A stretch of 64,000 bases of DNA. Origin: Chryseobacterium joostei. Its GTDB lineage: Bacteria > Bacteroidota > Bacteroidia > Flavobacteriales > Weeksellaceae. The position numbers and the translations under genes are program-made. This document shows positions 43,434 through 50,081 of this stretch, in pieces. The notes under the pieces are model-generated. The model was not told the origin of the DNA. It searched no databases and saw nothing but the letters and a program-made list of their open reading frames with translations. How positions within the stretch are numbered: the stretch's first letter is position 1; every line of letters starts with the position of its first letter. The DNA is taken from the NCBI RefSeq assembly GCF_003815775.1, contig NZ_CP033926.1, forward strand, positions 3,348,001-3,412,000. Direction: 5' to 3'.

Positions 43434-43613
43434 TTAGCATGGTTGGCATTCATGTCCGGGATTAGGGTATACCCATCCTCCACAGCAATCAGGAATAGGC
43501 TGTAGCAAACACCCGATCCTTGTTTTTCCTGTTTCAGGATCTTTATAAAGGCATTGGCCTACTCCCACACTTCCGTTAATTTTGGAAGCTTCTTTTCTCG
43601 TTAATTTTTTCAT
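43434..43613 (-). CDS. Small cysteine-rich 'bacteriocin-like' peptide
   Basis: A 59-residue peptide that most ORF cut-offs would miss. The N-terminus MKKLTRKEASKINGS resembles the L(S/T)R-x-ELK-x-INGG leaders of Bacteroidota bacteriocin-like and ribosomally made peptides, with Ser in place of the second Gly. The remaining 44 residues carry six cysteines (21, 35, 43, 44, 56, 59), Gly and Pro, and few charges, ending GHECQPC. A -7 element TAAATTTG lies 22 bases upstream and a terminator directly downstream, so it is a complete unit. No transporter or modifying enzyme adjoins. It could be exported or metal-binding, and its function is unknown. Confidence 0.68.
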   Translation of the reverse strand: MKKLTRKEASKINGSVGVGQCLYKDPETGKTRIGCLLQPIPDCCGGWVYPNPGHECQPC

Positions 43614-44859: not shown

Positions 44860-45780
44860 TTAGCTCTCAAGATATCGGTTTAATGATTCCTGAAGATGGT
44901 TGCGAATGTCATCAACTAAACATTTAGGTTCTAGAACCGTTACCTCTTTCCCATAAGAAAGAATTTCCTGCATAAAGTCATAGGTAGGGTGAAGAAAGAA
45001 CTCAAAATAGATTTCTTCCGGAGTTTCCTTGGTTTCTTTTTGTGATTGGTGAAGCGGAAAACTTCTGATATATTCTCCCTGATGACGGCTGCATTTTAAT
45101 ATAATATTCTGAGGCTTTTGTTCTGCCAGATTCATCACTCCGAAAGCATTTTTAAAATGCTCCTTGAAATTATATTTGTATTTTTCTCTGAATTGGTTCT
45201 TTGCTACATCCAGATAATTGATTCTGTCCAGTCCAAATGACTTTAGAATTTTGTCCTTGGTATCAATGGCGATGAGGTACCATCTGTCTTTAGATTCTTT
45301 TAAAGCCAGAGGGTGTACCTTTCTGGAAGTCATTAGTTTGTTTTTGTAATTGTAGTGTTCAAAAGATACTACTCTTTTATTACGAATAGCGAAGAACAGA
45401 TCGTAAAAATGCTCTACACCGGTTGGTTTTCTACTTTCAAAGAAAATAAAGTCGGAAAAGTTGGGATGAAGATTCAGGGCATTGCTTACCTGAAAAGATT
45501 CCAATAGCTTTTGGTTGTATTCATCCACTTCCATGATAGGGCGGCTCTCAATATAATAACGGTTGTCACCCTTTTTTTTGTTGTGAATAGAAAGGTTAAA
45601 AAGATCCGAAATTTCACGAATATCCCTCTGCAAGGTACGAATAGAGTAGCTCTTGATTCCAGCATCCTGGAATTCGAAGGAGTTTAAAAGATAGTCCTCC
45701 AGCTGAGAATAAGTAGCCGGAGAACTTTCTAGTCTTTTAATAATTAAGGCATATCGTGTCAGATAAAAATCTTTCTTCAT
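44860..45780 (-). CDS. HTH-WYL-WCX transcriptional regulator
   Basis: A 306-residue regulator with an N-terminal winged HTH (about 5-75, recognition region SYSIRTLQRDIREI), a WYL domain with the name motif WYL at 167-169 (KDRWYLIAI), and a C-terminal WCX dimerisation extension (about 220-305). Relatives include DriD and PafBC, which activate DNA-damage genes, and CapW/BrxR, which repress phage-defence operons. Several are thought to sense nucleic-acid ligands. A copy of the inverted-repeat box lies at its own promoter (45865-45904), and four more lie upstream of nearby genes. I infer that it controls this local regulon and itself. Confidence 0.9.
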   Translation of the reverse strand: MKKDFYLTRYALIIKRLESSPATYSQLEDYLLNSFEFQDAGIKSYSIRTLQRDIREISDLFNLSIHNKKKGDNRYYIESRPIMEVDEYNQKLLESFQVSNALNLHPNFSDFIFFESRKPTGVEHFYDLFFAIRNKRVVSFEHYNYKNKLMTSRKVHPLALKESKDRWYLIAIDTKDKILKSFGLDRINYLDVAKNQFREKYKYNFKEHFKNAFGVMNLAEQKPQNIILKCSRHQGEYIRSFPLHQSQKETKETPEEIYFEFFLHPTYDFMQEILSYGKEVTVLEPKCLVDDIRNHLQESLNRYLES

Positions 45781-45864: not shown

Positions 45865-45904
45865 CAAATATATGCTCTTAATGCGACAAAACTTGTCGTG
45901 TTTT
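45865..45904 (-). promoter_or_regulatory. WYL-box A and -7 element, promoter of the WYL regulator
   Basis: In gene sense an inverted repeat CGACA-N5-TGTCG followed by C (box 45883-45904 with its A/T flank) is 10 bases upstream of the -7 element TATATTTG (45865-45872). The ATG lies 84 bases further. Both half-sites are intact. This suggests autoregulation. Confidence 0.75.
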
Positions 45905-45966
45905 ATTTTTTTGAAGAAACAATATTGAAAATTAATATCATTATATCTTCCATAATCTGACATATT

Positions 45967-46128
45967 TTATAGTTCTTCTTCGTCTTCCCATTCCTCAGCA
46001 TAGCCATGTTTTGTTGAAGTAAAAAGGACTTCTCCTTTTTCAGCATCTACAATAACAAATTGAAGAATGGGCTCCGGGTATCCTTCAATCTTATTTTTCT
46101 CTTGAAGCAAGAAACTCAAAAGATTCAT
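45967..46128 (-). CDS. Small protein with an acidic C-terminus
   Basis: A 53-residue protein starting at the ATG at 46128 (MNLLSFLLQEKNKIEG). The frame extends to 46161 without better support. The central part (EPILQFVIVDAEKGEVLFTST) looks like a small beta sheet, and the end is strongly acidic (EEWEDEEEL). No family is recognised. It lies between the WYL regulator and another small acidic protein, inside the box-controlled cluster, but has no box of its own. It might be read through from 46723. Confidence 0.5.
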   Translation of the reverse strand: MNLLSFLLQEKNKIEGYPEPILQFVIVDAEKGEVLFTSTKHGYAEEWEDEEEL

Positions 46129-46161
46129 TGTTATATAAAAGTGAACCTCCAATTTCCTCAA

Positions 46162-46425
46162 ATTCTTTTTGAAACTTTTCTCGTAATTTTAAAGAATATT
46201 GGATGGCTTCAAGGTATTATAGCCTTGTTTTTGGGGTGGTTGTAGGCTGTTCTGCTTTTGGGTGGGTTTTATTAGTGTTTTTATGATTATTTTAAACACA
46301 GCTCTGGCTGTTCAGCATCTTGTGATGGTGATTCAAAGGATTCGAGAATAATAGTAATGAGACTGTTGGTGTGTAGTATAGAATGACTGAACAGCAGCAG
46401 AACGTGTTGTGTTTAAAAGTATATA
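46162..46425. other. Gene-free stretch containing a long inverted repeat
   Basis: About 260 bases between two small acidic genes with no credible frame. G/T-rich sequence (about 46225-46270) precedes the inverted repeat at 46291-46417. Confidence 0.4.
46291..46417. repeat. Long imperfect inverted repeat
   Basis: Outer arms TTTAAACACA (46291-46300) and its exact complement (46408-46417), and inner arms GCTGTTCAG (46307-46315) and its exact complement (46387-46395), enclose a 71-base loop with a small CATC-TTGT-GATG hairpin. It could be a structured RNA element between the two small genes or the remains of a small mobile element. Confidence 0.5.
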
Positions 46426-46596
46426 TTAAATTGTGTCTTCTTCCAGAACATCGTCTTCAAAGTCTGTTCTGAAGAAGTTTTCAATGTCATTGAGATAGTT
46501 TTCATAGTCCATCTCTGCATTTTCGATGTCGCTCCACTCTATGGTGTAGAGATCTTCATCGAAGATTGTATCTGTGTTGTGAGTTGGCGTTTCCAT
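46426..46596 (-). CDS. Very acidic 56-residue protein
   Basis: A small protein starting at the ATG at 46596 (METPTHNTD). It has 20 Asp/Glu and a single Arg, giving a net charge near -19, with regularly spaced aromatics (Phe, Tyr, Trp). Such composition is seen in DNA-mimic inhibitors and in some antitoxins. No family is recognised. Box B with its -7 element lies upstream (46723-46760), so it should be under WYL control. The longer frame to 46671 is less likely, as its extra residues are not acidic and resemble leader sequence. Confidence 0.6.
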   Translation of the reverse strand: METPTHNTDTIFDEDLYTIEWSDIENAEMDYENYLNDIENFFRTDFEDDVLEEDTI

Positions 46597-46722
46597 GTTT
46601 TTTGTGATAAGGTGTTGGTTATATTTTGAACATATTTTGAGTTGTTCAGCATTGATAAATGTTGAAATCAAAGGCTTTTAAAGTTTTTGTTGATTGTTAT
46701 TTTGTGGCTTTGTTTATACTAC

Positions 46723-46760
46723 CAAAAGTAGTGGTGGGAAGCGACAAAACTTGACGTATT
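46723..46760 (-). promoter_or_regulatory. WYL-box B and -7 element, promoter of the acidic protein gene
   Basis: In gene sense CGTCA-N5-TGTCG then C (46741-46760 with flank), 10 bases upstream of TACTTTTG (46723-46730). The distal half-site has one change from CGACA. The ATG is 126 bases downstream. Confidence 0.72.
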
Positions 46761-46829
46761 AAAAAAATATTTTTCTAGGTAATGATATAATCTTTTTAGC
46801 TTATATTGGGTATTTATAAGCTTAAAAAC

Positions 46830-47867
46830 TTATATTTTGTTTTTGATGAGCTTCTGAACAATTTGATTCAATGTTTCTCTGTTATCATCAATATAGCTTA
46901 ATCCTGCCTGTATCAGGTTTTCAATATTAGAGCGTCTTACATTATCCATAGCGGGAGAGGCATTTTTCAAGGATGGATTGAGGCGGTAATAGTTTTTCTG
47001 GTTTCTCAATCCTAAGGTCTGAAACATCTGACCCAGCTGATAATCCACCGTTTCTGCGTTGGCAGACATTAAGATATCAATGATAGGATTTACCCAGCCT
47101 ATTTTCCCGGCCTTTTCCAGTCTTTTAAAAGAATAAGGGCGGGCTTCAATTCCTGTTCCGATAGAAATGATAATCATATCATTAACTCCCGGATGGTTGG
47201 CTTTCTGATGGTTTTTTAAAACCTCAGCAAAAGGGATTTTTCTAGCCTCTGCATAAGCACAAAGAGCAGGGTTGTTTGCAAACATACCCCCATCAATCAA
47301 GCTGAAGATTTGTCCGTACATAGATTTAATCTGCACAGGACTAAAATAGGTGGGTGCTGCTGATGTGGCTCTGCAAACATCTTTTACGTAAAAATTATCT
47401 GTGCTAAGATGAGCTTCCCAGGAATTGAAAAGCTTTGCACGTCTGTTCTCTATATCATAACTTGTTATTAAACATGGTTTTATTAATTCCTTTAATTCTA
47501 AATTTCCAAAAAAGTCATTTAGGTTTTTCTGAAGCGCTTCCTGCGAAATCCTCTCATTCAACAATCCAAATGGATTAACCAGTTTTTCCCAAAAGGAAAC
47601 CTGGAAGATATCACCGCCCTTTTCAGCATACAATTCCAAACCTTTCTGAATGGAATATTTTGCTTTACGAACTTCATCAGGACAAAGAATAATAGATGCA
47701 ATCAGACCTCCTGTGCTGCTGCCTGCTACCAAATCAAAATAATCCCCAAGCTTGGCACTTGGTTTATCATAATACTGGAGCTGTTCTTCTATGTAGCGTA
47801 GAATAATACAGGTAATAATTCCTCTTATTCCGCCTCCGTCCAAAGAAAGAATGGTTGTCTTTTTCAT
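46830..47867 (-). CDS. Patatin-like phospholipase
   Basis: A 345-residue patatin-fold lipid acyl hydrolase without a signal peptide. The oxyanion motif DGGGIRG is at 10-16, the nucleophile motif GSSTG at 49-53 (Ser 51), and the catalytic Asp at 192 in DGG. This is the group of bacterial patatins that includes CBASS effector phospholipases (CapV), but no cyclase gene adjoins. Box C with its -7 element lies upstream at 47998-48037. I infer a stress-induced enzyme attacking the cell's own membrane or a lipid substrate. Confidence 0.9.
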   Translation of the reverse strand: MKKTTILSLDGGGIRGIITCIILRYIEEQLQYYDKPSAKLGDYFDLVAGSSTGGLIASIILCPDEVRKAKYSIQKGLELYAEKGGDIFQVSFWEKLVNPFGLLNERISQEALQKNLNDFFGNLELKELIKPCLITSYDIENRRAKLFNSWEAHLSTDNFYVKDVCRATSAAPTYFSPVQIKSMYGQIFSLIDGGMFANNPALCAYAEARKIPFAEVLKNHQKANHPGVNDMIIISIGTGIEARPYSFKRLEKAGKIGWVNPIIDILMSANAETVDYQLGQMFQTLGLRNQKNYYRLNPSLKNASPAMDNVRRSNIENLIQAGLSYIDDNRETLNQIVQKLIKNKI

Positions 47868-47997
47868 GTGATATTTTTAATTGTTTTTTTTTTGAAGAAT
47901 ACAGACAAATTTTAATTAGGAAATTAGCTGTTTACCAAATCTGTTATTGAGCTTAATGCCTGAATTTCATTGCCTTTTTAGTTGTTTTCTTGTAAAT

Positions 47998-48037
47998 CAA
48001 AGATAGGACGGAGAAGCGACAGAACTTGTCGTGTTTT
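47998..48037 (-). promoter_or_regulatory. WYL-box C and -7 element, promoter of the patatin gene
   Basis: In gene sense CGACA-N5-TGTCG then C (48016-48037 with flank), 10 bases upstream of TATCTTTG (47998-48005). Both half-sites are intact. The leader to the patatin ATG would be about 120 bases. Confidence 0.75.
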
Positions 48038-48049
48038 AATTAATTTCAA

Positions 48050-48550
48050 TTAAAAAATGACATAATTTTGTTCATCTTTTGGCATCTTTAAAAGCTTTCT
48101 CCAGCTAATTTTTATATGTCCTTTTTTCGATGAAATACTCTTTTTTTCAAAGTGGGGAAGGTCTTTGAATGTTTTCCAGTTTCCGCCCCAATCCCAACCA
48201 TGTCTGGCAAAAACCTTTACACATTCGTCCCAGTCGGCAATTTTATCATTATCCCAGTCTTTTACCGTATCCCAACTTGCGGTTTTTCCGTCAATCATCA
48301 GGCAAATATCTATAGCAAGCCCATAGTTATGAATACTTTGTCCGGCTTTGGCATTGGTCACCTTTTTCCCGGAAGTAATTCTTCCTATGGCATAGAGCTT
48401 TTCCTGTTCCTCAAAAGACCTTAATCCTTGGGTGATTCTTATTTTGGCTCTTCCGGTAAGAGCTTCGTCACACTCCTTGATAATTTGTTTCACTTCATCT
48501 CTTACCAGCGGGTGAAGTTTCTGAATTCTTTCTGATGTTACTTTGTCCAT
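48050..48550 (-). CDS. M15-family endolysin-type L-Ala-D-Glu peptidase
   Basis: A 166-residue zinc peptidase resembling phage T5/Ply500 endolysins. Zinc ligands are His 74 and Asp 81 in SIHNYGLAID and His 133 in LPHFE, and the region HGWDWGGNWKTF is typical of the phage enzymes. It has no signal peptide, so like phage endolysins it would need membrane disruption to reach the wall. No holin, spanin or other phage genes adjoin. Two boxes (D and E), each with a -7 element, lie upstream. It is probably a stress-induced lysis or wall-remodelling enzyme. Confidence 0.9.
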   Translation of the reverse strand: MDKVTSERIQKLHPLVRDEVKQIIKECDEALTGRAKIRITQGLRSFEEQEKLYAIGRITSGKKVTNAKAGQSIHNYGLAIDICLMIDGKTASWDTVKDWDNDKIADWDECVKVFARHGWDWGGNWKTFKDLPHFEKKSISSKKGHIKISWRKLLKMPKDEQNYVIF

Positions 48551-48568
48551 AATCTTTATCTTTTAAAG

Positions 48569-48608
48569 CAAAATTAGTAGGGGAAAGCGACAAAAATTGA
48601 CGTGTTTT
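48569..48608 (-). promoter_or_regulatory. WYL-box D and -7 element, proximal promoter of the endolysin gene
   Basis: In gene sense CGTCA-N5-TGTCG then C (48587-48608 with flank), 10 bases upstream of TAATTTTG (48569-48576). The ATG is 18 bases downstream of the -7 element. Confidence 0.75.
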
Positions 48609-48657
48609 AATTAAAAACGGAAAGAAAAATAGAAGTATAGAAAAATGTTTTTGAAAA

Positions 48658-48697
48658 CAAAACTATAATGATAATGCGACAAAATATGTCGTATTTA
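48658..48697 (-). promoter_or_regulatory. WYL-box E and -7 element, distal promoter facing the endolysin gene
   Basis: In gene sense CGACA-N5-TGTCG then C (48676-48697 with flank), 10 bases upstream of TAGTTTTG (48658-48665). It points the same way as box D, giving tandem promoters, but also lies 113 bases upstream of the divergent umuC start and may influence it. Confidence 0.7.
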
Positions 48698-48809: not shown

Positions 48810-50081
48810 ATGTATGCACTGGTAGATTGTAATAATTTTTTTGTTTCCTGTGAAAGGACTCTGGATCCTGCACTTGAGGGCAAACCCGTTGTGGTTCTTT
48901 CCAACAACGACGGATGTGTTGTATCCCGAAGTAAGGAAGCGAAAGACCTGGGTATTCCCATGGCTGCCCCGGCCTTCAAATACAAGGAGCTTTTCAAGCA
49001 GCATGATGTAAAAAGCTTTTCAGCGAAATTTGAGCTGTATAATTACAAAAGCCAGCAAGTTATTAATATTGCCAGCTCTTATGTTTTGGATTATGAGGTG
49101 TATAGTATTGATGAACTTTTTCTCGATTTAACGGGGTTTAAGTACATTGATATTTATGATTATTGTTTTAAAATTAAGGAAGAAATTGATGAAAAAGAAA
49201 ACATTCCTGTAAGCATAGGAGTTGCACCTAGTAAAACCTTGTGTAAGGTTGCCAATAGAATTGTAAAGGATTTTCCGGAACAATTTAATGGGGTTTATAT
49301 CATGGATACTCCTGAGAAAATTGAAAAAGCTTTGAAATGGCTTAATATAGGTGATGTATGGGGAATAGGTAGAAAGCTGGCTGTAAAGATGAATGACAGT
49401 GGGGTTTATAAGGCATGGGATCTTCTTCAGAAACCGGAAGCTTGGGTTAGAAAAATAATGGGAATTCATGGAATAAGAATGATCAATGAGTTGAAAGGAA
49501 TTCGTCAGCTGGAATTAGATGCTCCATCACCCAAAAAGTCTATTGCCGTTACCCGAAGCTTTATGCAAATGCTTACAAATAAGGAAGACATCCGAGAGCG
49601 CATAGAAACCTTTGGAATGTATTGTTCGGAAAGGCTACGCAGGCAAAATACCTGTTGCAGGATGATAACGGTGTTTGTACAAACCAATAGGTTTAGAAAA
49701 GATCTTCCTGAATATAGAAATGGAATGACCCAAATTCTTCCCAATCCCACCAATTCCTCCATTTTAATAGGAAGAGTTGTAAATGAACTGTTTGAAGCCA
49801 TCTACAAGGATGGGTTTCATTATAAAAGGGCCGGCGTTATGGTAAATGACTTTGTTCCTGAAGATCAAAGACAGATCAGTCTTTTCGAAGAAGATACCCA
49901 AAATCAACATCTTCCTGTGATGAAAGCAATGGACGCCATGAACAGAAAATACGGGAAAGATAAAGTGCGTCTGGGAAGTATGAGCGGTGAGAATACTTTT
50001 GGCCGTACGCAGCTGTCTCCTGAATATGAAGCTTTCTTAAAAAATAATACTTTACCTGAAGCTAACTTTAGGTTCCATTAG
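48810..50081 (+). CDS. umuC: Y-family DNA polymerase UmuC (DNA polymerase V catalytic subunit)
   Basis: A 423-residue translesion polymerase. Catalytic acidic residues are Asp 6 in LVDCNNFF and Asp 101/Glu 102 in YSIDELFLDL. UmuC-specific features include SNNDGCVVSR at 31-40 and the C-terminal domain with a beta-clamp motif QISLF. The usual partner gene umuD (LexA-like, S24 peptidase) is absent on both sides, so the polymerase either uses a remote UmuD or acts alone. It is divergent from the endolysin gene, and the two share a 259-base region with boxes D and E. Confidence 0.95.
   Translation: MYALVDCNNFFVSCERTLDPALEGKPVVVLSNNDGCVVSRSKEAKDLGIPMAAPAFKYKELFKQHDVKSFSAKFELYNYKSQQVINIASSYVLDYEVYSIDELFLDLTGFKYIDIYDYCFKIKEEIDEKENIPVSIGVAPSKTLCKVANRIVKDFPEQFNGVYIMDTPEKIEKALKWLNIGDVWGIGRKLAVKMNDSGVYKAWDLLQKPEAWVRKIMGIHGIRMINELKGIRQLELDAPSPKKSIAVTRSFMQMLTNKEDIRERIETFGMYCSERLRRQNTCCRMITVFVQTNRFRKDLPEYRNGMTQILPNPTNSSILIGRVVNELFEAIYKDGFHYKRAGVMVNDFVPEDQRQISLFEEDTQNQHLPVMKAMDAMNRKYGKDKVRLGSMSGENTFGRTQLSPEYEAFLKNNTLPEANFRFH

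Follow-up and report, generated by a model that had tools for sequence, protein, structure and literature searches.

The stretch of DNA analyzed here (64,000 nucleotides (nt) of Chryseobacterium joostei, NZ_CP033926.1, positions 3,348,001 to 3,412,000; hereafter the window) carries the gene of a 306-amino-acid (aa) protein with a WYL domain, and five copies of a palindromic box, CGWCA-N5-TGTCG, each at one fixed distance from a promoter element. What was observed directly is the motif with its spacing and genomic distribution, the link to WYL genes and the genes found downstream; the box followed by N11 and TAnnTTTG is a promoter architecture. Judging from the sequences compared, promoters sharing this architecture are very probably read by a DriD-like WYL regulator. 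With a probability of roughly two in three, the WYL protein would be a DriD-like activator of its own promoter and of scattered lysis and toxin genes, responding to a nucleic-acid trigger and serving weapon production and lysis.

The box was found at five minus-strand sites of the window, three of which match the pattern on the plus strand too, giving eight pattern matches (mean of shuffled controls 0.01; eight or more reached in 0 of 100 shuffles). In gene sense, C, N10 and TAnnTTTG come after each of the five boxes, which were thus located where the original prediction had placed them, far above the level of the shuffles. Its description of the boxes as identical was too strong, since position 3 (A or T) and the five central bases vary. 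The boxes and the genes around them are as follows.

44860..45780, minus strand: WYL regulator gene, winged helix-turn-helix (wHTH)-WYL-WCX, 306 aa, candidate DriD-like activator (Pfam WYL 3e-13, WCX 2e-7; best PDB matches PafBC and DriD)
45865..45898, minus strand: Box A with its -7 element, promoter of the WYL gene; 84 nt from motif end to ATG
46426..46596, minus strand: acidic protein, 56 aa
46723..46756, minus strand: Box B with its -7 element, 5' of the acidic open reading frame; 126 nt between motif end and ATG
46830..47867, minus strand: patatin-like phospholipase, 345 aa (Pfam 3e-25)
47998..48031, minus strand: Box C with its -7 element, 5' of the patatin gene; 130 nt from motif end to ATG
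48050..48550, minus strand: M15 peptidase of phage endolysin type, 166 aa (Pfam Peptidase_M15_4 2e-20; PHROG endolysin 5e-30)
48569..48602, minus strand: Box D with its -7 element, proximal promoter of the M15 gene; 18 nt from motif end to ATG
48658..48691, minus strand: Box E with its -7 element, the distal one of the two tandem promoters before the M15 gene, not a promoter of umuC; 107 nt from motif end to ATG
48810..50081, plus strand: umuC-type Y-family polymerase, a neighbour gene whose membership is not supported

The spacing was analyzed in 80 loci from Chryseobacterium and related bacteria (1.57 Mb), which had been fetched with the WYL protein alone, without use of the motif; the count was restricted to them. 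Another motif survey mixed in motif-selected loci and used a pattern with a partly fixed centre. TAnnTTTG stood at exactly +11 on one strand of 158 of the 178 core boxes, at a background of 0.0007 per position. Among the 20 exceptions, 11 were, by our own reading, CGACA-N5-TGACG in the WYL sense with TAnnTTTG at +11, seven had a one-base change in the -7 element, and two were left unexplained. A relaxed pattern gave 190 motifs, all of them on the strand of the WYL gene, with the distal half more variable than the proximal one (CGTCA in 68 and TGACG in 26 of the 190). In Flavobacterium psychrophilum, the sigma-A -7 element has the form TAnnTTTG and occupies -12 to -5 (PMC9723704); at that position the box would span about -38 to -24, over the -35 region.

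The fixed spacing, the greater variability of the distal half and the near-identical leaders at three RHS clusters of the genome of the window would also be expected if an alternative sigma factor used the box as its -35 element, or if the box belonged to a shared leader spread by duplication. That explanation is very improbable, given that the site is a dyad with both arms, CGACA and TGTCG, at 80 of 80 self-promoters, that the -7 element is the housekeeping TAnnTTTG, and that unrelated genes carry the same box.

The link between box and WYL gene was consistent throughout the fetched loci: CGACA-N5-TGTCG with TAnnTTT at +11 preceded the WYL gene in all 80 (hereafter the self-box). Among 12 further genomes of the genus, chosen for few or no strict motifs, the WYL gene was present in all and the self-box in 11, with none in G028. 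The expectation that boxless genomes of the genus would be devoid of the WYL gene failed, both G017 and G028 carrying it; the self-box of G017 does exist and had been missed by the strict pattern with its fixed TTN centre. WYL orthologues from other genera showed a self-box in nine of the ten loci read, two of them with altered half-sites, the locus without being L189. At 34-38% identity, WYL homologues had a self-box, in several cases altered (CGTCA-N5-TGACG and similar), at ten loci (L237, L238, L249, L251-L253, L256, L257, L259 and L260), and none at nine (L247, L248, L250, L254, L255, L258 and L261-L263). Covariation of the recognition helix with the form of the box, sought by eye, was not established.

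The strict motif was detected in 57 of 59 genomes of the genus and in 43 of 148 of the family, the genus and family labels of the compared genomes being inferred from named WYL-fetched loci. Across the family, the strict box and a WYL orthologue (59% identity or more) occurred together (35 genomes with both, 4 with the orthologue only, 8 with the box only and 101 with neither; Fisher p 8e-22), as they did outside the genus of the window (15/4/8/101; p 1e-10), both p values ignoring relatedness. Genus g9 gave 7/0/0/13, but seven of its eight strict motifs are self-boxes. In the eight box-positive genomes without an orthologue, the box lay before a more distant WYL gene in three (G086, G088 and G143), before recA in four, and before an unidentified reading frame in one (G062).

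With a free centre, the motif was found in nine of 395 Bacteroidota genomes, eight of which were among the nine family members in that sample. Outside the family it was present in one of 386 genomes (G338), as a single match whose end is separated by 21 nt from the start of a WYL-WCX gene (41% identity) lying downstream. This match, obtained in a blind scan, is the strongest single argument that WYL proteins would read the box, and together with the self-boxes it bears out the proposal of a self-regulated WYL regulon. No matches of the reversed control were shown in the scans of 59, 148 and 395 genomes, which argues against a random genomic placement of the box. In the 4.9-Mb genome of the window, CGTCA-N5-TGTCGC-N10-TAnnTTTG gave five exact and five one-mismatch matches; at up to three mismatches there were 19 matches vs. 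nine for the reversed pattern. Because the control yields about half as many at that level, no claim here rests on the weak matches (L119-L126), and L132 and L133 likewise have doubtful sites. The grammar of the promoter can be written explicitly as CGWCA-N5-TGTCG-Y-N10-TAnnTTTG, so that the sequence of any Chryseobacterium genome is enough to draw up a list of candidate targets.

The sequence profile of the WYL protein was closest to PafBC and DriD among PDB chains (5e-15 and 2e-12, respectively), followed by BrxR (6e-5) and CapW (0.16), strengthening the comparison with DriD and PafBC made in the original prediction, as does the operator. DriD of Caulobacter crescentus is a published WYL activator switched on by single-stranded DNA (ssDNA), whose consensus ATACGAC-N7-GTCGTAT overlaps -35 at a constant distance from -10. 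Both proteins share the wHTH-WYL-WCX architecture, the operator core CGAC-N7-GTCG (here CGACA-N5-TGTCG at 80/80 self-promoters), the distal AYA flank, as in ATACGAC, the site over -35 at a constant distance from the -10 position, and a role in DNA damage, which here would be a predicted one. They differ in sequence (14-20% identity in structural alignments), in the WYL pocket (WRLDR in DriD, FGLDR in the protein of the window), in the polymerase context, here the Bacteroidota sigma-A with its -7 box, and in targets: didA, bapE, recJ and dnaG in Caulobacter, and lysis and toxin-type genes here. PafBC of mycobacteria is likewise a WYL-WCX regulator, activating a LexA-independent damage regulon via the housekeeping sigma factor, yet it is a heterodimer with a non-palindromic motif that binds promoter DNA only with RNA polymerase, whereas here there is one gene and a palindromic box. 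SiwR of Mycobacterium smegmatis, also a WYL activator, has its palindrome between -35 and -10, but is known for one adjacent operon, in contrast to the scattered regulon described here.

CapW and BrxR share the fold and a palindromic operator with the WYL protein, as well as, for CapW, autoregulation. Near-tied structural alignments (within 1 Z) mean that the fold comparison alone does not exclude them, and the WYL protein could be a repressor of this type, holding the same genes and leaving the box on phage infection or damage. We consider this unlikely, although less so than the other alternatives. Published CapW sites overlap -10 and are tied to the cyclic oligonucleotide-based antiphage signaling system (CBASS), while here 11 bp lie between the end of the box and the -7 element downstream, and an activator in contact with the polymerase, unlike a steric repressor, would be expected to keep one spacing at many different promoters. 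The sequence profile also placed DriD and PafBC closer. A PADLOC scan covering 14 proteins of the locus gave neither a CBASS cyclase nor a bacteriophage exclusion (BREX) gene; an effector-like protein was seen in the patatin alone, the other matches being weak and scattered. The patatin is similar to CBASS phospholipase effectors (PADLOC 8.5e-61), but its score for NF041079 (161 bits) is below the NCBIfam cut-off of 200. Taken together, the constant spacing at promoters of unrelated genes, the location over -35 and the relationship to DriD and PafBC argue for an activator that requires contact with the polymerase.

Regarding the signal, equivalents of the ssDNA residues of PafB are partly kept in the WYL protein (R181, Y196 and R214, with R208 changed to K). 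Two further ssDNA-contact residues are replaced (R204 by D and R211 by G), so that ssDNA is a putative signal. In all 46 relatives that were aligned, FGLDR, with G183, stands in place of the FRLxR loop of PafB, a hint that the ligand, or the way it is bound, may differ in Bacteroidota.

The damage component of the original prediction was upheld in part. In all seven genomes of genus g11, a box lies some 80 nt ahead of the recA start, and recA was the only DNA-repair gene found behind the box. In the genus of the window, no box-like site was present in the seven recA upstream regions read (about 600 bp each), and recA was rejected as a target there; the box was also absent from the other ten recA upstream regions outside g11 with a recognized start (17 in total with the genus of the window). 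A damage link in the genus of the window is therefore indirect, resting on a recA box found in another genus. The umuC-type gene, which had been counted as a member, divergent on the far side of the M15 boxes, was rejected. All 190 relaxed motifs point in the direction of the WYL gene, and umuC, present in 19 of 80 loci, always points the opposite way; Box E does lie between the M15 gene and umuC, but shows no TAnnTTTG at +11 on the umuC side, and no motif in the umuC direction was found in the window or in the 80 loci. At one locus (L074), the umuC promoter of this species has two GATAC-N5-GTATC dyads, perhaps an S24 operator.

Independence from LexA, also proposed, is plausible, yet three S24-peptidase proteins are encoded in the genome of the window, one with an XRE-type start and beside a Y-family polymerase gene. 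As for canonical LexA, no convincing case was found in the family: PF01726 matches occurred in 11 of 148 genomes, eight of them over the cut-off; the three read in g11 (L244-L246) looked TetR-like by eye, and the match in the genome of the window (23.7 bits, at the cut-off) lies within a 473-aa frame. Non-canonical XRE-S24 LexA repressors of Bacteroidetes, which control a damage regulon in this phylum, are described in PMC8565304; the dyads they use have N5 spacers, and the repressors have been duplicated and have diverged in Weeksellaceae. The box could be the operator of such a repressor, with the WYL gene merely one of its targets. We regard this as highly unlikely. The box was absent from the upstream regions of all three S24 genes of the genome, though LexA-type genes are usually self-regulated; no S24 gene was recognized by eye among the listed box targets; the operators reported there are different (GGA-N5-TCC, CTAA-N5-TTAG and TTAC-N5-GTAA), as is the S24 peptidase itself; and the fixed distance to the -7 element and the WYL self-boxes across genera would be left unexplained. 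A separate damage module was observed at L308 (about C1:1378000 of the same genome), where an XRE-S24 protein gene is divergent to a Y-family polymerase gene, as in Elizabethkingia (PMC8565304), and has no WYL box.

The genes behind the box were wider in range than initially proposed. The 129 full motifs of the 80 loci precede WYL genes (75), patatin genes (25), the acidic open reading frame (12), M15 genes (10), DUF2589 genes (2), a 1255-aa-type protein (1), a phage-tail-like protein (1) and unassigned frames (3). The 56-aa acidic protein had no match in Pfam, PADLOC, NCBIfam or PHROG. A 59-aa peptide encoded at window positions 43434-43613 has a leader akin to that of ribosomally synthesized peptides (MKKLTRKEASKINGS...) and carries cysteine in its C-terminal part, the kinship being judged by eye.

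Away from the WYL locus, 41 motifs were read in 40 regions hand-picked among the matches listed (L194 and L206 are short contig ends). RHS-type clusters, missed in the original prediction, start at 21 of them, and are made up of a carrier with a type IX sorting signal, an RHS_repeat protein and a DUF6443/RHS protein. The remainder lie before a 231-aa orphan (4), relatives of the toxin protein of the WYL locus (2), recA (1) and other known kinds (4, one each), with nine not classified. In the genome of the window, the box is present at three RHS clusters (two exact motifs and one TGTCGT variant) and at the orphan gene. Ntox44 matched the end of one of its RHS proteins just under the cut-off of 24 (8e-5, 23.3 bits), and a Tox-MPTase4 domain was detected in proteins of the WYL locus and of distal sites; in the remaining RHS proteins that were scanned, known toxin domains were absent. 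The 231-aa orphan (L130:5988-6680; box at C1:4168932 in the genome of the window) is preceded by the box in five of five genomes read, and its named relatives among the matches listed are all Chryseobacterium. It had no Pfam match, its structural model was modest (predicted local distance difference test score, pLDDT, 71), and no PDB match at E 0.001 was found.

A contractile tail module adjoins the box-driven endolysin and patatin genes in G020 (same contig as L099), and the same neighbourhood recurs on the IMG/VR contigs L336, L337 and L338. PHROG identified a sheath, a baseplate hub and a tape measure, while the sheaths of L337 and L338 were recognized by eye; a 144-aa protein matches both a head and a tail family, and the FENGD-type proteins gave weak matches to minor-tail and peptidase families. 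A sheath homologue was present in 10 of 59 genomes of the genus, two of them close, and of these G020 has it beside the box locus; the genome of the window lacks the module, and a search for a sheath homologue in it found none. In phage sequence of IMG/VR, the full WYL motif was observed 5' of small open reading frames (L335:13613-13646 and L339:7866-7899), in L335 beside a regulator-like gene, and a phage may make use of the regulon of its host. L340, a contig classified as viral, has a boxed RHS carrier gene next to genes that are recombinase-like by eye; RHS clusters may travel.

Based on these observations, we infer that the WYL protein binds CGWCA-N5-TGTCG, presumably as a dimer, and that, once bound over -35 at one fixed distance from the sigma-A TAnnTTTG, it would recruit or reshape RNA polymerase and so activate its own promoter and scattered targets. 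Targets at the WYL locus would be the phage-type endolysin, the patatin phospholipase, and phage-tail-like and polymorphic-toxin genes; elsewhere they would include RHS toxin-type clusters, the conserved orphan and, in one related genus, recA. A nucleic acid that signals damage to the genome or attack by phage, sensed by the WYL domain, would be the likely trigger, and the outcome a production of weapons coordinated with lysis. Colicins under LexA control follow a comparable logic. The combination of lysis with toxin genes suggests a programme of release in response to stress, and the set of promoters as a whole suggests a switch by which stress would turn on weapons and cell lysis.

Both the protein family and activators of this kind are already known; the regulon, its Bacteroidota operator and the link to toxins and lysis were not described among the literature matches listed (titles and abstracts, with subscription papers and preprints mostly outside). 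At a broader level, it is possible, though we propose it tentatively, that Weeksellaceae have placed RHS toxins, tail-like genes, endolysin and phospholipase under a nucleic-acid-sensing WYL activator instead of LexA, as a damage-triggered kill-and-lyse regulon into which recA was recruited in one genus, with CGAC-N7-GTCG over -35 in common with Caulobacter DriD across phyla. WYL regulators are common, and few have a known regulon. If the proposed activator role is true, a WYL-based stress regulon would exist in Bacteroidota beside the XRE-S24 repressors, a DriD-like activator would be connected with lysis and toxin genes, and how WYL activators work could be tested in a further phylum, one whose -7 element is different.

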